Source: Acidobacteriota bacterium (lineage in GTDB: Bacteria; Acidobacteriota; Blastocatellia; RBC074). Taken from it: a DNA stretch of 64,000 nucleotides. The notes below the pieces were generated by a model. The model was not told the origin of the DNA and made no database searches. It worked only from the letters and a program-made list of their open reading frames with translations. Below are positions 15,452-56,457 of the stretch, piece after piece; the stretch's first letter is position 1; each line of letters opens with the position of its first letter. Position numbers and translations under genes: made by a program. The stretch covers positions 62,001 to 126,000 of the forward strand of contig JACPYM010000005.1 of assembly GCA_016196035.1 (NCBI GenBank), read 5' to 3'.

Positions 15452-15514
15452 TTGTTCATTGTTCATTGTTCATTGTTCATTGTTCATTGTTCATTGTTCA
15501 TTGTTCATTGTTCA
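15452..15514. repeat. Heptanucleotide array (TTGTTCA)x9
   Basis: Nine perfect consecutive TTGTTCA units lie between the divergent-side 5' end of the oxidoreductase gene and the 3' end of the glycine-zipper protein gene. No coding sequence covers it with support. The region 15515-15596 shows nothing recognisable. Confidence 0.95.
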
Positions 15515-15596
15515 TTGCGGAATGCGCTGTCGGGCAATGACAAATGAACCCCATGCCTCGCAACGCCGCCTGCCGCGCCCGCGCCGCCTTACGGCC

Positions 15597-25155: not shown

Positions 25156-26571
25156 GTGGCACACAAACAATACAATCCGGCTGATGATTTTGACCTGATG
25201 CTGCGGCGGCATCTGCGGCAGGGCGGCGCGCCGGTTGCGCCCTGTGCGGGCTTCGATGCCGACACGGCCAGCGCCTATGTCGAGCGCGCCCTCGCAGCGC
25301 CCGGCCAGCTTCGATTTGAAAAACATTTGGCAAATTGCGCCGCTTGCCGGCGTCACATCGTGGCCTTGGCGCGCTTGAGCGATCAACTTAGCCCCTTGCC
25401 CGCGGCGTCACCAGCCGCGCCCGTACAGGTTGCCGAACCGTTGTGGACGCGCGGGCGGCGGGCCGTGGCGCAATGGCTCGATTTCAGCGCCTGGAATTCA
25501 GGTTGGACGGCGGCGGCGGGCGTGGCCTGCGCCGTGTTATTTGCCGTGCTGGGCGCGGGCGTTTGGTGGCGCGCACAGGCGCCGCAAGCCGGGCAGGCTG
25601 CCAAGGTCGCAGCGCGGCTTGCCGAAACGCCTGCGGCAATGTCCGATACCGCTGAAAGCACGCCGCCACTTTCCGCCAATTCGTTAAATGACGCGGCGAA
25701 GAATGCCGCAGCGAACGTGGCCCCGACGACCCCGACAACATTGAACCAGCCCGCTACCAACGAGCCGGTGGTGACCACACAGCCGGGCACGCCACTGATT
25801 AGTTTGCTCAAGGCTGAGTCAGCCGCCCCCGCGCGGCCTGCCATTCCGCCGCCAGCCACCACGCCGAATTTCCCGGTCACGGGCAATCCGGCGGCGCTGA
25901 CCGCCCACACGTCGGAATTGCGCGCGCTGGCAATGGAAGCCAGCGCGCCAACCGTGGCCGCGCCGCCCGTGCCAGCCCCGGCGTTCAATCCGCCCGCGAC
26001 GGCAATTTCATTCAATCATCAAAATGGCAATCAACCGGCTGGCGGGGTTAGCCCTCTGCATCTGGGTGGTGTCATCCTGCCGGGGGAGATGGGCTTGCAG
26101 CCAAGCCAGCCTGAGACAAAAGAGATGGCGAAGGAACTGCTTTTGCCAAAACCGCGCCGCCCTCGCTCAGGAGAAGCGCTTGCGACCAAGGCGGATGCCG
26201 GCAAGACCGCCAGCAACAACGAATTATTGAAAGCGCTCAAGGGCCGTTCGCTCGGGTTTATGCCGCTGAAAGGTTCCGATAAGGAAGCCAAAGGCATTGA
26301 CGCCCGCACTAAAGAGGCCGACCTCAAAGAAGCCCAGGAGCAACCAAAACTCTTGATGAAGCGGCTCAACGGGCACGTCTTTTATTTCGACCACGGTTTC
26401 TGGATTGATGAGGATTACAAGTCTGAAACTTCAATGACCATCAAGCGCCTGCAACGTGGCAGCCAGGAATACCAGCAAATCCTGATTCAAAACCCTTCGC
26501 TCGAACAGTTCTTCCAACTCGGCCAGGTCATCGTCGTGTGGAAGGGGGTTGTTTACGAAGTTCGGAAGTAG
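25156..26571 (+). CDS. Membrane zinc-finger putative anti-sigma factor with periplasmic domain
   Basis: About 471 aa; the start is uncertain (GTG 25156 chosen; TTG 25117 possible). A cytoplasmic zf-HC2-like motif appears early (FEKHLANCAACRRHI), followed by a membrane helix at about 115-135 (AAGVACAVLFAVLGAGVWW), a long Ala/Pro/Thr-rich linker, and a conserved-looking C-terminal domain (FYFDHGFWIDEDYKSETSM, ending GVVYEVRK). HLxxCxxCR proteins typically bind and inhibit a sigma factor; position suggests the one at 24049. The C-terminal domain is unrecognised and may be the sensor. The stop TAG is part of a heptanucleotide unit. Confidence 0.75.
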   Translation: MAHKQYNPADDFDLMLRRHLRQGGAPVAPCAGFDADTASAYVERALAAPGQLRFEKHLANCAACRRHIVALARLSDQLSPLPAASPAAPVQVAEPLWTRGRRAVAQWLDFSAWNSGWTAAAGVACAVLFAVLGAGVWWRAQAPQAGQAAKVAARLAETPAAMSDTAESTPPLSANSLNDAAKNAAANVAPTTPTTLNQPATNEPVVTTQPGTPLISLLKAESAAPARPAIPPPATTPNFPVTGNPAALTAHTSELRALAMEASAPTVAAPPVPAPAFNPPATAISFNHQNGNQPAGGVSPLHLGGVILPGEMGLQPSQPETKEMAKELLLPKPRRPRSGEALATKADAGKTASNNELLKALKGRSLGFMPLKGSDKEAKGIDARTKEADLKEAQEQPKLLMKRLNGHVFYFDHGFWIDEDYKSETSMTIKRLQRGSQEYQQILIQNPSLEQFFQLGQVIVVWKGVVYEVRK

Positions 26572-26690
26572 TCAGTAGTCAGTAGGCGAGAGCTGTAAGC
26601 CTGACTTGTTCCCTTCTGGCTGTTTCGCCTACTGACTACTGACTACTGACTACTGACTACTGACTACTGACTACTGACTACTGACTACTG
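26567..26690. repeat. Inverted heptanucleotide arrays AGTAGTC x3 ... CTACTGA x8
   Basis: Three AGTAGTC/AGTAGGC units (26567-26587) start inside the stop codon of the anti-sigma gene. After a 41-base spacer come eight perfect CTACTGA units plus six bases (26629-26690). The two arrays are reverse complements in register, so the transcript could fold into a long hairpin. Confidence 0.95.
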
Positions 26691-31329: not shown

Positions 31330-31540
31330 GCATGAGGTGTCTAGCATTAGACACCGGTGTCTAGTATTGGATGCTGGTGTCTAATGCTAAATCGGAACAA
31401 CCAACATTGGGACAGTGCGCCGGTACGGAACCGGGAGCGATAGCGACCGGGTGCTGCCGAATAGGTCTAACACGAAGTCACCCGGTCGCTATCGCTCCCG
31501 GTTCCGTACCAATGTTGCGTGTTCTGATTTAGACACCAGA
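31330..31540. repeat. Hairpin element B (CTAAATCGGAACA termini) with flanking GGTGTCTA repeats
   Basis: The inner arms are a perfect 32-bp inverted repeat (31422-31453 against 31479-31510; GGTACGGAACCGGGAGCGAT). The outer arms are GCTAAATCGGAACAACCAAC (31386) and CCAATGTTGCGTGTTCTGAT (31509). Outside these, GGTGTCTA and its complement TAGACACC recur several times (31338-31385 and 31531-31537). There is no ORF. The interval 31305-31569 is otherwise empty. Confidence 0.8.
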
Positions 31541-38259: not shown

Positions 38260-38575
38260 GTGGGTGAGCAGGATGTCAGCCGTGGCTGACGATTGAACTG
38301 TTTTGGCGAATTGCGCCGGAACTATCCATTGCGGGTGTTTCCGGCGCATCGCGCAATGACGTTGCGAAATGCTTGAATGCTCCGTAAGGAAACAGCGGGG
38401 CGAAAATGCATCAACAAAGCAGCAATAAAAGCAATAAAGAAGATTGAAATAACGCCCCTGCCTCCTCTCCTTCAAGCGTGCGCGTACCCTCTCCCCGTAA
38501 CACATTCTGGTGACGCGCAATCTGTAATCATGAAATTACGCTCTTCTTTAAGATGAAGAGGTGTGGGTTGGTAAG
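38260..38575. other. Intergenic region upstream of the exporter gene, nothing recognised
   Basis: About 315 bases. No supported gene and no heptanucleotide array. It probably holds the promoter of the export/polymerisation genes; no clear box could be picked. Confidence 0.35.
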
Positions 38576-39544
38576 ATGAGCACTGAACGGCATCCCTTCT
38601 TAGTTCCCGGTCTCTTGGCTTGCGCCGCGCTCTGGTTTTTTCATGCAGCGGTTAGCGCGCAAGACACGCCTGCCCGTTTGCGCACCGTCAACACCGCGCC
38701 CATTGATCCGGCCACCAATAGTTCCACCAATTATCATATCGGCCCTGGCGACGTTCTATTGATCGAAGTCGCAGGCGAACCCGACCTCAAACGCAAAGTC
38801 AAAGTCACCGAACTCGGCACGATTCAACTGCCCTATATCAATCACGAATTGAAACTGGGCGGCTTGTCTGAACATCAGGCCGCCGCATTACTCAAAAAAG
38901 AGTTCCTCACGATTCTCAAGGAACCCCAAGTCACCGTCTTTATCGAAGAGTACAACGCGCTGGCCGCCGGCATTGCCGGGGCAGTCAAGGAACCCAAGCG
39001 CATTGCGTTGACGCGCGAATTACGGCTTTACGATCTGATCGGACTCGCGGGCGGTTTAACCGATAAGGCAGGCGAACTGGTCGAACTGGTGCATACCAAA
39101 GGCGAAGAGGGCATCGAGACGATTGACTTGAAGGAATTGTTTCGCAAACCCGAACTCAATCGCGTCATCCGCGACGGCGACTTGGTCAATGTGCCTGAAG
39201 CCGGGGTGATTTACGTCACTGGCAACGTCAAAAACGCCGGCCCCTATCCGGTCAAAGAAAACGTCACCTTGACCGAAGCCCTGGCGATGGCAGGCGGTGT
39301 GCAACAAGACACGAAGCGCAAAGAAATTCGCCTCTGGCGCGCGAACGGATCGAATAAGAATCAGCGCACCGAGCAGGTCGTCAGCTTGGACGAGATCGAG
39401 AAAGACCCGAAGAAAGATATCCTGCTGCGTCCTTATGATGTTGTGCTCGTGCCCGAATCATCCAACAGGAAGCAGGCGCGCTCCATCGTGCAGGCGCTCG
39501 CCAGCGGCGTTGCCAGTTCGCTGGGCTGGGGGATTTTGCGGTAG
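38576..39544 (+). CDS. Polysaccharide export protein (Wza/outer-membrane polysaccharide export family)
   Basis: 322 aa from ATG 38576; GTG 38561 is also in frame. Signal peptide ([18 protein letters not shown]). The polysaccharide-export domain begins [20 protein letters not shown], followed by two SLBB-like beta-grasp repeats ([17 protein letters not shown]-type and [20 protein letters not shown]). A C-terminal amphipathic segment ([19 protein letters not shown]) could form the outer-membrane helical barrel, as in Wza. It works with the Wzc-like protein encoded next. The stop TAG is in a degenerate heptanucleotide run. Confidence 0.88.
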
Positions 39545-39640
39545 CTGGTAATCAGTAGCCGGTTGGCGGCTTTGATGCTCGCTGAATCCGACTACCGACT
39601 ACCGACTACCGACTACCGACTACCGACTACCGACTACCGA
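39540..39640. repeat. Inverted heptanucleotide arrays GGTAGTC (degenerate) ... CCGACTA x7 up to the Wzc start codon
   Basis: Degenerate units GGTAGCT, GGTAATC, AGTAGCC and GGTTGGC begin in the exporter's stop codon (39540-39567). After a short spacer, seven perfect CCGACTA units plus CCGA run from 39588 to 39640, ending on the A of the next gene's ATG. No ribosome site is present between array and start. Confidence 0.95.
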
Positions 39641-41946
39641 TGAATTACAACGACGACAATCGCAACGCTCTGGTCAATGTCCCGCAACCCAGCAATGAGA
39701 TGCAGCGGCGGCAGGGCGGCGTGCCCGCTTCGCCAGGAGGATACCCGATTGGGTATCCGGCGGGTTCAGCGCGCTATCCGGCGCTCGAAGTCGAAAAGAA
39801 CTCATTGCGCGAATACTGGCGCATCGTCAAGCGTCACAAATGGGTGGTGATTTCGACGTTGTTCATTTTAGGTACACTGGTCACGATAGCGACGTACATG
39901 ACGCGGCCCGTCTATCGCGCCACCGTCAAGGTCAAAATCGGCAAAGAGACCGAACGCGTGCTGAGCGGCCAGCGCATTATGGAGGTCGAGACGGCCAACG
40001 TTTTCAATCCGCTGTATATGCAAACGCAGGTTGAAATCCTGCAAAGCCGCGATCTGGCGCGCCGCATCATCAACAAGCTCAAACTCACCGAGCACGACGA
40101 ATTCAAACTCAAAACCAAGAACCCGCTCAGCGAAAACGAACGCCAGGTCGTGCTGGTCAACACCTTTCAAAACCGCTATGACGTCGCCGTCGGACGCATG
40201 AGCCGCGTCGTCTCGATTTCGTTCGACGCCTACAACGCGCAACTGGCTGCCGATGTGGCGAACACCGCCGCCGAACAATACATCGGCTGGTCAATGGAAA
40301 ACCGCGTGCAGGGCGTCGAGAGCGCCAAGGACTTTCTCAAAGAAAAGCTCCTCGAATCCGAAGCAGAACTGCGCAAATCCGAGCAGGCCTACAGCGCCTA
40401 TTTGACCGAACACAAAATCATTTCCTTCGATCTGGACAAAGGTAACATCACGCTCGACCGCGCCTCCGAACTCAACAAACAACTCGTCCAGGTCGAGAAT
40501 GAACGCCGCCAGTCCGAGGCGCTCTATCAGCGCAGCCGCGAGGCCGCGCCCGATGATTTGCCGCAAGTGCTCAACGACACGATGGTGCAAAACATCTCGA
40601 AAGAGTTGAGCAAGCAGGAACAGGAACTCGCCAACCTCTCGGCTAAATATCAACCGGGTTATCCGGCGGTCAAACAGGTGCAGGAACAGGTCAACGATCT
40701 CAAAGAGCAATTGCAAGCGGCCAAAAAGAACGTCGTCAAAAATATCGAGACGCAATACGAAGTCGCGCGCCGCAAAGAGGCCGACCTGAAAGTCTCGCTT
40801 TCACAATCCAAAGGCGAAGCGATTCAGCAAAACCGCGAATCCGTCCAACTCAACGTCATCAAACAGAAGCTGGACATTGACCGCAAAATTTACGACGACC
40901 TCTTGCAACGTTCGCGCCAAGCCGGGGTCGAGAGTGAATTCCATCCGACCAACATCCGCGTTGTCCAAACCGCCGAAGTCCCCATCGCGCCCGTCAAACC
41001 GAACAAGCCGCTCAACATTGGCTTGAGCGTATTGATTGGCTTGGCGTTAGGCATCGGCTTGGCCTTCTTCATCGAATATCTGAACAACACGATCAATACG
41101 GCCGAAGATGTCGAACGCATCACGCACCTGCCGCCGCTCGGCGCGATCCCGTCGCTACAGAGCCTGAGCAAACGCAAAGGGCTGGGCTACGGTTACGGCG
41201 CGCGCAAGAGCACCGCGCTGTCGCTGTCGAATGGCAACGGCAGCGACAACAGTCACGAACTGGTGTCGAGCCACGATTCGCTGTCGGCCTATTCCGAATC
41301 GTATCGCGCCTTGCGCACCTCGCTACTGCTTTCGTCCGCCGAACACGCGCCGCGCACGATGCTCATCACCAGCAGCCATCCCGGCGAAGGCAAAACGACC
41401 ATTGTCGCCAATACCGCGATTTCATTGGCCCAAACCGGCGCGCGCGTGATCGTGCTGGATGGCGATATGCGCCGCCCGCGCTGCCACAAGGTATTGAACA
41501 CCAAAAACGAAGTCGGCCTTTCGACCTATCTCTCGCGCGACATCCCGCTCGATGAAGTCGTGCAGGAAGCCGCCGACATTCCCAATCTGCACGTGATTCC
41601 CGCTGGCCCCGTGCCGCCCAATCCGTCAGAGTTGCTCAGTTCGGTCAAGCTGCGCATTCTGCTTTCGCAATTGCAGGATCGTTACGATCACATCGTGATT
41701 GATTCGCCGCCGGTGATTCACGTCACCGACGCGCTCATCATTTCCCCCCAAGTAGACGGCGTCGCCCTCGTCGTCAAAAGCGGCCACACGCCGCGCGAAG
41801 CCGTCGTGCGTTCCAAACAGGCCCTGATTGACGTCAACGCCAAGATTTTCGGTGTCGTGCTCAACCACGTTGACCTTGAACGCGAAGGGTATTACTACAA
41901 TTACAAGTATTCGTATTACCACCACGCTGAAGAAAGTAGTCAGTAG
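39640..41946 (+). CDS. Wzc-like polysaccharide co-polymerase and BY-family tyrosine kinase
   Basis: 768 aa. The Wzz domain starts at about 58 ([19 protein letters not shown]), with the first membrane helix at about 70-88. A long coiled coil (200-460) and a second membrane helix at about 460-485 ([20 protein letters not shown]) follow. The cytoplasmic kinase has Walker A GEGKTT (582-587), Walker A' [10 protein letters not shown] and Walker [13 protein letters not shown] tyrosine-rich tail ([12 protein letters not shown]) is the expected autophosphorylation cluster. It controls chain length and export with the Wza-like protein. The start codon abuts a heptanucleotide array without a ribosome site, and the last residues (SSQ) and the stop come from another array. 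Confidence 0.93.
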
Positions 41947-42007
41947 TCAGTAGTCAGTAGTCAGCAGCTTTGTGCTAGACCGACTACCGTCTACCGATTA
42001 CCGACAA
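41935..42007. repeat. Inverted heptanucleotide arrays AGTAGTC x4 ... CCGACTA x4 (degenerate)
   Basis: AGTAGTC x4 (41935-41962) spans the Wzc stop codon. After 17 bases, four units CCGACTA, CCGTCTA, CCGATTA and CCGACAA (41980-42007) end seven bases before the ATG of the next gene. The layout repeats that of 39540-39640 and 26567-26690. Confidence 0.9.
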
Positions 42008-42013
42008 CTGCCA

Positions 42014-43291
42014 ATGCACAGACGCCTGCTGCTGCTCATCATCGTTCTTGCCCCCGCCCTTTTCTGCGGCGCCTTCATCATCAGGCAATTCTTGGCGACT
42101 TCGTTGATCATCTCCGGCAATGAAGGATCGAGCCGTTTAATAGCTGCGGCCTACGCGCCGTCCAATCCTTATGCATTGGCCGCGTATGGTAAATTTCTGC
42201 TCTATGACGCTGAAGCTCCCCAACCAGCCACAGGCTTACTCGAACTTGAAAGCGCGGTTAAAGCTTCGCCCTTTGATTACCGGTTTTGGTTGATATTGGC
42301 GCGCGGATACGAAAGCGACAATCAAATCGCGCAAGCCGAACGCGCCTACCAACAAGCTCAAACGCTCGCCCCGCGCTATTTCGAGACGCATTGGACGCTC
42401 GCCAACTTTTACCTGCGCAGTGCGCGTACAGGAGAAGCCTTGCGTGAATTTCGCGTTGCGTTGGAACTCTCCGGCGAAACGGCTGGCGAAACGGATGCCC
42501 GCGCCACGCTCAATGCTTATGAAGCCGTGGCGCAAGGGCTGGGCATGAATCTGGCGGTCTTGCGGCAAATCGCGCCGCCCGACGCGCGGGCGCAAGCCTA
42601 CCTGGCGAAATACCTGGCCGAGCATCAGGCCCTCGATCCGGCGCTGGAAATCTGGCGCGGGTTGCCCCCCAACGCACCGCGGGAACGCCGCGACATCCTG
42701 TCCAGCCTGCTCGCCGCGGCGCAAGCCAACGGGCGTTTTCAAGCAGCGCGCGAACTCTGGCGCACCTTCATGCTCAGCACCGGCACGCCTGATTGGACTG
42801 CGCCCAACCTGATCTATAACAGCGGCTTCGAACGCGAATTCATCACCGACCCGGCAGGTTTCGATTGGCAACCAGCCGCGCACGCCGAAGTCTTCTTGCG
42901 CCGCGATGATGCACAGGCGCACGCGGGCCGTTACGTCTGGCGCATGACCTTTGCCGCGCAAATGAAAAGCGAGTTGTTCGGCCCCGCGCAATTGCTGGTC
43001 GTCGAACCGAACACGCAATACCGGCTGCGTTTCTTCGCCAAGACCACCAAGGCGCCTGACAATGCGCCCTTCATCGAATTGACCGATGCCGTGCGCCCGC
43101 AGCTTTTCGCCGTGCGTGCGCCCGTGCCGACCGGCACGCAGGATTGGCGCGAAATCGCGCTGACCTTTACGACGCCGGCTGAAACACGCGCCTTGCGCCT
43201 GACGATCCGCGCGCCGCAATTGACCGAGGTCAACACCGGCCATATCGCCGAAGTCTGGCTGGACGATTTCAGCCTGGAGATTTCCCCCTAA
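42014..43291 (+). CDS. TPR protein with C-terminal carbohydrate-binding-like domain
   Basis: 425 aa from ATG 42014; an upstream in-frame GTG would translate the heptanucleotide array. A single N-terminal membrane helix (LLLLIIVLAPALFCGAFIIR) anchors the protein. TPR-type repeats span about 65-270 (FDYRFWLILARGYESDNQIA, ETHWTLANFYLRSARTGEAL). From about 275 a beta domain reads NLIYNSGFEREFITDP and ends VWLDDFSLEI, reminiscent of jelly-roll carbohydrate-binding modules. It probably assists assembly or export of the polysaccharide from the periplasmic side. Confidence 0.75.
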   Translation: MHRRLLLLIIVLAPALFCGAFIIRQFLATSLIISGNEGSSRLIAAAYAPSNPYALAAYGKFLLYDAEAPQPATGLLELESAVKASPFDYRFWLILARGYESDNQIAQAERAYQQAQTLAPRYFETHWTLANFYLRSARTGEALREFRVALELSGETAGETDARATLNAYEAVAQGLGMNLAVLRQIAPPDARAQAYLAKYLAEHQALDPALEIWRGLPPNAPRERRDILSSLLAAAQANGRFQAARELWRTFMLSTGTPDWTAPNLIYNSGFEREFITDPAGFDWQPAAHAEVFLRRDDAQAHAGRYVWRMTFAAQMKSELFGPAQLLVVEPNTQYRLRFFAKTTKAPDNAPFIELTDAVRPQLFAVRAPVPTGTQDWREIALTFTTPAETRALRLTIRAPQLTEVNTGHIAEVWLDDFSLEISP

Positions 43292-43409: not shown

Positions 43410-44753
43410 ATGAAAAAGCTCGACAGCCTTCTGTTCATCAACCTGCTGCTGACCGCCGTGCTGGCACCGCTGGCTTACGGCACCGTCGAGCCGTGGTCGC
43501 TGGCGGTGTTTGAATTGAATGCGTTGTTGCTGGGCGTCTTGCTGGCGGCGCGGCTGACGTTTGAGCCGAGCGTTGCCTGGCCCAACTGGCGCTTGGCTGC
43601 GCCGTTGCTGGCGTTGCTGCTGCTGGCGGCAATTCAACTGTTGCCGTTGCGTGCGGCAACCTCCGCCAACGATGTTTTCCAAGCCACACAAGACTGGCGC
43701 ACGCTCTCGCTGGATGCGCAGGCAACGCGCGAGAGTGCCGTCAAGTTGCTGGCGCTGCTTTGTTATTTTGGCGTGGCGTTGCATTTGCTGCGCGACGCGG
43801 GACGGCGGCGCAAATTACTTATCACCCTGTCAGCGTTGGGCGGCAGCCTCGCGTTATTTGCCATCGTGCAGAAATTGACCTGGAACGGCAAATTCTATTG
43901 GCTGCGCCCGGCGTCACCTTACGTCGCGCCGTTCGGCCCTTACGCCAATTACAACCACTTCGCTGGCTTGATGGAATTGCTTTGGCCGTTGCCATTTGCT
44001 TACGCGCTGTTTGCGCGTGTCGAAGCAGGGCAGCGCACGTTGTGGCTGTTTGCCGTTGTGTTGATGGCGGCGGCGTTGCTCTTTTCACTTTCGCGCGGCG
44101 GGATGCTGGCCTTTGTCGTGCAATTGGCCGCGCTGCTTTGGCTGGCGCGGCGCTGGCAACGCGACGAACGGCGGCGTTTGCTGAGTGCGCCTGCCATGAT
44201 CGGTTTGATCGTGTTGTTGATTGCCGTCATGGCCTTGTGGATCGGCGCCGACCGCTTGCTCTGGCGTTTTCAATCGTTAGGGCAGGGCGCGCAGGAATAC
44301 TCCGTCGTTACGCGACTGGAATACTGGCGCGCGGCGGGGCGCATGTTTCTAGATCATCCCATCGCTGGCGTAGGTCTGGGCGCGTTCCCAGCGGTCTATC
44401 CGCGCTATGGTCATTCGTCGGCAAAGCTGGAACGGCTGGAACAAACGCACAACGATTACCTGCAATTGCTGACCGATGCGGGGGCGCTCGGCGGCTTGCT
44501 GTTGCTGTGGTTCGTCGTCGCATTGCTGCGTCAAATGCGCCGCCAATGGCTTGAGCTGGTTTATCTGCGCAGTCAGGAGCGCGCGTTGTGGGCTGGTGGA
44601 TGCATTGCGCTGCTGGGCATCGCGGTGCACAGCTTCCTGGATTTCAATTTGCAGATCGCGGCGAATGCGCTGGTGTGTTTGTTGATTGTGGCTTTGGTCA
44701 ATGTACCAACTGTCAACGAAGCCTTGCCACAGAGGCACAGAGGCACAGAGTAA
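43410..44753 (+). CDS. O-antigen ligase/polymerase-family membrane protein (copy 1)
   Basis: 447 aa, with about 11 predicted membrane segments (for example [18 protein letters not shown] and [18 protein letters not shown]). The Wzy_C signature region reads [33 protein letters not shown] and [20 protein letters not shown]. Members polymerise or ligate polysaccharide repeat units in the periplasm. A second family member lies at 54690. The last residues (PQRHRGTE) come from a CACAGAGG repeat that pairs with 44795-44811. Confidence 0.88.
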
Positions 44754-44811
44754 GAGAGAGGTTTTTCAATTTCTCTCGCCACCCTCTGTGTCTCTGTGCC
44801 TCTGTGGCAAC
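44728..44811. repeat. Inverted CACAGAGG repeat at a gene end
   Basis: CCACAGAGGCACAGAGGCAC (from 44729) pairs with the right side CTCTGTGCCTCTGTGG (ending 44809) across about 36 bases. The left arm codes the last residues and leads directly into the stop codon of the O-antigen ligase gene. It may form a terminator-like hairpin between convergent genes. Confidence 0.7.
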
Positions 44812-47280: not shown

Positions 47281-47629
47281 TGAACCTCCAAATCACCAAA
47301 CAAATCTCCGGGCATCTTTAGCGCGCGTTTGGACGAGACCAGGCTGTGGCGGGACGGAAAACTTTTGCGCCTGCCGTGCTCTTGCAAAGTCCTCAAAACA
47401 CCCGCCAAAGACGCTCCGCTGATTCCCGACTCCTGACCCCTGACTCCTGATAACTTAAAAATACTGGCTGATTTTCAAGCTATCAGGAGTCAGGGGTCAG
47501 GAGTCGGGAATCAGCGGAGCCGTTCAAGTGCTCTTGCCGACGATGTTGCAAGAGCACTGCTTGCGCCTCCTAGCGAGCCGCCGCGAGTTGGACAAGCTGG
47601 CAGCAAACTACGAAAATGCCCGCATCCTT
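47281..47629. other. Intergenic region, holds a perfect 39-bp inverted repeat
   Basis: About 350 bases between divergent genes. Apart from the inverted repeat (47414-47519) nothing is recognised; an open frame through 47528-47629 is probably not coding because the DegT start at 47630 fits better. Confidence 0.5.
47414..47519. repeat. Perfect 39-bp inverted repeat with heptanucleotide units
   Basis: Left arm 47414-47452 (CTCCGCTGATTCCCGACTCC...) is the exact reverse complement of right arm 47481-47519, with a 28-base AT-rich spacer. The arms contain heptamers GACTCCT, GACCCCT and GACTCCT. Confidence 0.95.
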
Positions 47630-53449: not shown

Positions 53450-53466
53450 ATGATGCTCTGCTCGAA

Positions 53467-53644
53467 GCCCTGAAAGGGCGGCATTTAGTAGCCCAGGGCA
53501 ACGCCCTGGGAAGCCGCATATTGAAATACAAGCCCTGAAAGGGCGAAATAACTAAATGCAATTTCGCCCTTTCAGGGCTTGCACGTCATTGATGATGTCC
53601 CCAGGGGCGTTGCCCCTGGCTATCGAATGTCGCCCTGGCAGGGT
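53467..53644. repeat. Cluster of REP-like GCCCTGAAAGGGC palindromes
   Basis: GCCCTGAAAGGGC (53467-53479), CCCAGGGCAACGCCCTGGG (53492-53510), AGCCCTGAAAGGGCGAAAT (53531-53549) with its exact reverse complement at 53561-53579, CCAGGGGCGTTGCCCCTGG (53601-53619) and GCCCTGGCAGGGT (53632-53644). The rest of 53450-53733 shows no gene. Confidence 0.9.
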
Positions 53645-56175: not shown

Positions 56176-56457
56176 CTGGGAGCGCAGGCGCCCTGATCTT
56201 ATTGGCGAATGTATGGTGTGCGTGGCAAGCCCTGAAAGGGCGAAATTCAATAGCCGGGGGCAACGCCCCCGGCGCGCGCGAAGACAGTTCCCGGCCCTGA
56301 CAGGGCCGTATTTGTAACCGGATGCGACCCCTTCAGGGTCGAGAGATGACACGTGCCTTCCCGTGGGCGGTGCCCACGGCTATTAAATGTCGCCCCTTCA
56401 GGGCATTAAAGCCAGCGTGGTGAGTTCGCCAGATCAGGGATGCCTGCGGCTCCCAGG
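56176..56457. repeat. Second cluster of REP-like palindromes with nested outer arms
   Basis: Outer arms CCTGGGAGCGCAGGCGCCCT (56176) and AGATCAGGGATGCCTGCGGC (56431) pair imperfectly. Inside are GCCCTGAAAGGGC (56229), CCGGGGGCAACGCCCCCGG (56254), GGCCCTGACAGGGCC (56294), GACCCCTTCAGGGTC (56326), CGTGGGCGGTGCCCACGG (56362) and GCCCCTTCAGGGC (56392). The interval 56127-56482 has no supported gene. Confidence 0.9.

Follow-up and report, generated by a model that had tools for sequence, protein, structure and literature searches.

The inverted heptamer arrays that flank the Wzc-type kinase gene are ordinary members of an estimated several hundred heptad hairpins at gene junctions of the same genome. 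They lie in a window of 64,000 nucleotides from an Acidobacteriota bacterium (assembly GCA_016196035.1, contig JACPYM010000005.1, positions 62,001 to 126,000). The elements have a 7-nt period, inverted arms and a placement running from the stop codon of one gene to the start codon of the next; they recur at many unrelated junctions, and at a conserved junction the heptamer is replaced by others. Since the same blocks are found genome-wide, and since their letters have been replaced at one junction, we regard them as a general junction feature and not as a Wzc switch. The hairpins have probably grown by slippage at tight operon junctions, where they are tolerated and possibly also used; whatever they do to Wzc regulation would be incidental.

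The Wzc locus is organised as follows (positions in the window, genes identified with Pfam).

38561-39544, plus strand: polysaccharide export protein gene (Poly_export and SLBB domains); its stop codon, 39542-39544, lies within the first left-arm unit
39540-39562, plus strand: upstream element, left arm, degenerate units GGTAGCT GGTAATC AGTAGCC (39540-39560), then GG
39563-39587, no strand: upstream element, spacer of 25 nt (hairpin loop), from sequence and RNA fold
39588-39639, plus strand: upstream element, right arm, exact CCGACTA array abutting the Wzc ATG
39640-41946, plus strand: Wzc-type polysaccharide co-polymerase/kinase gene (Wzz, GNVR and AAA_31 domains), start backed by orthologues
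41935-41968, plus strand: downstream element, left arm, AGTAGTC units covering the Wzc stop codon
41969-41978, no strand: downstream element, spacer, from sequence and RNA fold
about 41979-42006, plus strand: downstream element, right arm, degenerate ACCGACT-type units, with ATG 42014 after 7 nt
42014-43291, plus strand: gene after Wzc (TPR and carbohydrate-binding hits), ATG conserved in orthologues

A Wzy_C domain is found further along from Wzc. Both ATGs, 39640 and 42014, gain support as starts from the conservation of the N-termini in the aligned orthologues. At each junction a 7-nt tandem array stands on either side of a spacer, in inverted orientation, so that the description given in the first-pass annotation is correct in its anatomy. 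The exact CCGACTA run extends over 39588-39640 (7.6 copies) and reaches the Wzc ATG, and the exact AGTAGTC run over 41935-41964 (4.3 copies). As had been stated, the upstream stop codons are part of the arrays, TAG 39542-39544 in the first unit of its arm and TAG 41944-41946, the Wzc stop, in the second; the complementary units come to 0 nt from the ATG at Wzc and to 7 nt at the next gene; and no Shine-Dalgarno sequence precedes the Wzc ATG, nor ATG 42014. That the arrays pair in the mRNA holds in part. Pairing is possible, with RNA fold z values of -1.95 and -2.21 for the two elements, but the arms of the upstream element pair imperfectly, its left arm being degenerate and its right arm exact. 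None of its 7 unit variants is mirrored in the opposite arm, and there is thus no sign that its pairing is maintained.

Exact tandem arrays of at least 20 nt were counted in samples of 0.86, 1.63 and 2.03 Mb of the genome (9.59 Mb, 139 contigs). The 0.86-Mb sample contained 48 arrays of period 7, against 3, 4 and 13 for periods 6, 8 and 9, and its second-order Markov control contained no period-7 array of that length. In 2.03 Mb, 122 period-7 arrays were found (7 and 9 for periods 6 and 8), 105 of them intergenic, while non-coding DNA makes up about 20% of the sequence. Extrapolation from these 122 gives about 580 exact arrays for the whole genome, a figure that may be somewhat high because some of the sampled contigs were already known to carry GACTACC arrays. 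A pattern search detected GACTACC arrays on many other contigs. At least 28 intergenic heptamer classes were distinguished in 1.63 Mb; common units belong to the ACTACTG, ACCGACT, AATCCGC and ACCACTG classes and have no G-tracts of three. With an excess of 7-nt units over neighbouring lengths and a mainly intergenic location, the arrays fit the class of heptanucleotide simple sequence repeats (LSSR/STRR). Two contigs, G000:C127:10166 and C128:9853, end about 50 nt or less from a heptamer array, as if arrays broke the assembly. The window itself holds further examples.

15452-15517, minus strand: TTGTTCA array, 9.4 copies, between codirectional genes
26567-26690, plus strand: inverted heptad element AGTAGTC / CTACTGA following a stop codon, of the same kind as the Wzc elements
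47405-47514, no strand: inverted heptads in a divergent gap, with variants GACTCCT, GACCCCT and GATTCCC mirrored perfectly in both arms

Mirrored variants of this sort were considered as proof of fold-back copying between arms and given up, the outcome being mixed and the statistic contaminated by non-heptad stems.

The placement of the arrays was then defined relative to gene starts and stops from a home-made gene caller. An inverted partner (at least 10 nt, within 200 nt of the array) accompanies 51 of 90 intergenic arrays in 1.63 Mb, compared to 2 of 90 in a reversed-unit control. Of 83 array gaps, 75 lie between codirectional genes, versus 634 of all 861 gaps (Fisher p 0.0005), and 3 between divergent genes, versus 126 of 861 (Fisher p 0.004). 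In codirectional gaps the median distance from stop codon to stem is 1 nt. Once the element is removed, the residual gap has a median of 15-21 nt, as against 134 nt for codirectional gaps that have no array. For 61% of the elements this residual gap does not exceed 40 nt, a size class that accounts for only 1.2% of the intergenic bases. In 62% of cases no more than 20 nt separate the stem from the next ATG, against 8% for random positions, missed starts being allowed for. Where an array stands at a stop codon, the heptamer formed by the stop and the four following bases is in half of the cases a repeat unit itself: with one mismatch or none, it matched the 7 nt after it in 18 of 36 cases as opposed to 5 of 697. 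Roughly one array gap in five contains one arm alone, without a hairpin, so that not every element could fold out. In a few right arms the last letters ahead of the ATG are TTTTTT, a U run of the kind that follows the GC-rich stem of an intrinsic terminator. Comparison of the spacers among elements gave no common core or sequence, and no Rfam covariance model matched at the arrays.

Relatives were compared at a few junctions, with one genome per species. Between wzc and the next gene, the heptamer is AGTAGTC in the window's genome, GGGGAGT in G003 and GGCAAAA in both G006 and G008, and in G002 and G005 almost no gap is left (about 0 nt). The array upstream of Wzc is present only in the window's genome, the gap being 14-18 nt in G006, G008 and G010; upstream of rpoN, the gap without the element is 12 nt in G007. 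The most informative junction is hpf-rapZ, in the lptB-rpoN-hpf-rapZ-PTS cluster. In seven genomes of a first family (G000, G001, G003, G006, G008, G009 and G010) the whole interval from stop to ATG is filled by a heptad hairpin of 77-118 nt, and such a hairpin is also found in 5 of the 6 genomes of a second family (G011, G019, G023, G027 and G031). This amounts to at least 12 genomes in two families and at least 8 unrelated heptamers, with units that include GGTAGTC, GTGGCTA, GGATTGC, GGTTCAC and GGTGGCT, as well as AGAAGGC, GGCAAAA, AGATCAG and GATGTCA; G010 and G023 give a weak heptad signal. The gap is 8-26 nt in G002 and in families f5 and f6. Across these genomes the block at hpf-rapZ keeps its position, while its heptamer is exchanged entirely. 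Over all junctions compared, relatives have a heptad array at 14 of 31 junctions where the window's genome has one, and at 1 of 12 where it has none (p=0.03), and most of these 14 arrays are built of a different heptamer from that of the window's genome.

Two observations were made in passing in this cluster. In G004 (L334) the hpf-rapZ gap is 236 nt long and contains a near-perfect hairpin (-161 kcal/mol), far larger than those of the relatives and with no clear heptad signal. In the window's genome an ORF of about 8 kb (L266:7335-15329, minus strand) lies between rpoN and hpf.

Beyond this lineage, arrays of (GACTACC)x4 occur in members of many phyla among the matches listed. The listed arrays are mostly single, a stem score of at least 14 being found nearby in 21 of 93. 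When a stop codon lies wholly before the array and within 20 nt, the orientation is GTAG in 25 cases and CTAC in 6 (p=0.0009, among the matches listed); the left-arm orientation rule therefore holds outside the lineage.

Other palindromes are present in these genomes. We had envisaged that all junction hairpins are decayed heptads, and abandoned the idea, as most of the stems that are not arrays are without a lag-7 signal, and other dispersed palindromes account for many of them. Positions 31421-31511 of the window are a palindromic stretch to which G006 has dozens of matches of about 75-80%, on both strands, and G008 some; it is a dispersed element unrelated to heptads. At 44728-44806, inverted arrays of 8-nt units (CACAGAGG / CCTCTGTG) lie between convergent genes, with similar copies in G003 and G001. 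Two families of dispersed palindromes, CCTGGGTACGCACCGCTTCCAGCGTGC and GTTCAGAGTTCACGCTTCAGCGTGT, occupy codirectional gaps, with 56 and 28 core matches respectively in 2.03 Mb; they are found at L246, L166, L290, L167, L277 and other places (G000). Finally, Acido-Lenti-1 RNA has three matches above the Rfam gathering score in a 3-kb part of the window.

53466-53510, minus strand: Acido-Lenti-1 RNA (Rfam)
56228-56272, minus strand: Acido-Lenti-1 RNA (Rfam)
56361-56405, plus strand: Acido-Lenti-1 RNA (Rfam)

What, then, are the elements for, if anything? The first-pass annotation had proposed a translational switch specific to Wzc, in which the number of units sets the exposure of the start and hence polysaccharide output. 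The array does abut the ATG, the Shine-Dalgarno sequence is absent and some pairing is predicted, but we consider such a switch highly improbable. The array cannot be said to replace the ribosome site, since the array-free Wzc orthologues of G006, G008 and G010 likewise have no Shine-Dalgarno sequence. Nor does unit number appear to hide or uncover the start: its predicted accessibility hardly moves from 4 to 12 units, which is not the behaviour of a phase-variable switch, and start codons in array gaps are not predicted to be more hidden than controls. Taken together, these three points make a switch tuned by length unlikely. The supposed tie to polysaccharide production does not hold either, as the same elements are found at dozens of unrelated junctions, housekeeping ones such as lptB-rpoN and hpf-rapZ included. 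It also seems very unlikely that the elements are mobile palindromes of the REP or MITE type moved by a transposase, for instance by the Y1/RAYT enzymes of the genome. This possibility could be entertained because 9-14 copies of Y1_Tnp are present, because GTAG occurs in many of the left arms and the ends of REPs are known to provide TAG stop codons (PMC3733652), and because the stop-proximal, non-divergent placement is REP-like. However, the elements share neither core nor spacer, they are built of dozens of unrelated heptamers, no heptad array was found within 700 nt of the three Y1_Tnp genes examined, and ordinary dispersed palindromes exist separately from the heptads.

The main rival to slippage is a coupling hairpin under selection, that is, a functional RNA hairpin that at tight operon junctions would either hold the stop codon beside the downstream ATG, as a bridge for termination-reinitiation, or stabilise the upstream message, and whose structure would be selected while its letters drift. 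We give it a rather small chance. In a related form, which we hold to be possible but on balance doubtful, selection at some operon junctions would keep a stop-to-start hairpin as a device indifferent to sequence, hpf-rapZ being the clearest case. What this device would conserve, again a tentative proposal at best, is the 7-nt period, the inverted arms and the position and nothing else, the arrays being replaced whole. At hpf-rapZ the hairpin persists, with differing heptamers in two families, to a greater extent than simple neutral turnover predicts, which hints at selection. In most cases stop and start are each only a few nt away from a foot of the stem, and the Shine-Dalgarno sequence before the ATG is weaker in array gaps, with a mean of -1.78 as compared to -3.52 kcal/mol (p=0.001). 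Against selected pairing, mismatches in the stems show no excess of G.U (46) over A.C (65), although an excess is expected if RNA pairing is selected. Furthermore, single-armed arrays are found in tight gaps as well, and some relatives lack the element at the same junction with no visible compensation. Another idea was discarded, in which the hairpin would carry a Shine-Dalgarno site from the final part of the upstream gene to the ATG: upstream gene ends have no Shine-Dalgarno enrichment. Because the tests of an RNA role are thus mostly negative, the weaker Shine-Dalgarno sequences and the hpf-rapZ persistence being the hints to the contrary, we favour slippage and turnover.

The slippage explanation can be detailed as follows. 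Arrays would arise and change by slippage in steps of 7 nt, as the unit variants suggest, and slippage would often take in the stop codon as a repeat unit. Occasionally one arm may be copied into the other by fold-back, although mirroring of variants is patchy. The elements lie mainly at junctions that without them are tight (0-25 nt), where they could fold out of the way and leave stop and start close together. Their tolerance there would rest on two properties, this folding out and, in many elements, a stop codon available whatever the frame; both may even confer a mild benefit.

Earlier accounts of heptamer repeats are scattered, most of them dealing with one heptamer in one organism, and no function was found. 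In this lineage one heptamer can stand in for another, whereas the inverted arms and the span from stop to start are retained, which argues against explanations tied to one sequence, such as a single binding protein, a G-quadruplex or one transposase. The question becomes testable: are the elements a slippage by-product of tight junctions, or hairpins that keep neighbouring genes coupled? If the latter were true, they would be a structural element that RNA family searches based on sequence cannot see, with at least 8 unrelated heptamers doing the same job in related genera. In any case, heptad arrays beside surface genes should not readily be taken for phase-variation switches.

Several known systems resemble these elements. 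According to the survey of Mrazek (2007), as related in PMC4679880, heptamers are the top category of long simple repeats in most of the bacterial genomes surveyed. Among the closest are the GGGAATC repeats of Xanthomonas, intergenic heptamer arrays that form 70-75 inverted pairs in each genome (Rehm et al. 2015, PMC4692102). These lie mostly between codirectional ORFs and rarely between divergent ones, with the G-rich arm on the coding strand soon after the stop and the complementary arm shortly before the start; related genomes have them at the same junctions, with varying length and sequence (PMC4692102). Inverted pairs, codirectional genes and the arm-strand rule are common to both systems. 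In Xanthomonas, however, one consensus with G-quadruplex potential, GGGANTN, predominates, whereas dozens of heptamers are found here, of which most have no run of three Gs, and one heptamer gives way to another at orthologous junctions. The TAACTGA direct repeats of Beggiatoaceae, Cyanobacteria and Bacteroidetes (MacGregor 2015, PMC4679880) are similar in having 7-nt units one to several nt before starts, few Shine-Dalgarno sites, stop codons within units and overlaps with the ends of upstream ORFs. They are nevertheless a single heptamer in direct arrays (inverted in 1 of 170) disposed toward the start, while inverted pairs span stop to start here. The P6b stem of the Nostoc tRNA-Leu(UAA) intron (PMC4476775) shares complementary 7-nt repeats and length steps of 7 nt, and has two unrelated repeat classes forming one structure; it is one site within a group I intron, and the present elements are intercistronic. 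Like them, the GTAG-tagged REP palindromes (PMC3733652) are small, lie near or overlap ORF ends and have termini giving TAG stops, but their stems are short, their sequences fall into conserved families and RAYT genes are linked to them, in contrast to 7-nt tandem arrays of unrelated heptamers. From all of these the present case differs in how many heptamers occur and in the exchange of one for another at orthologous junctions.
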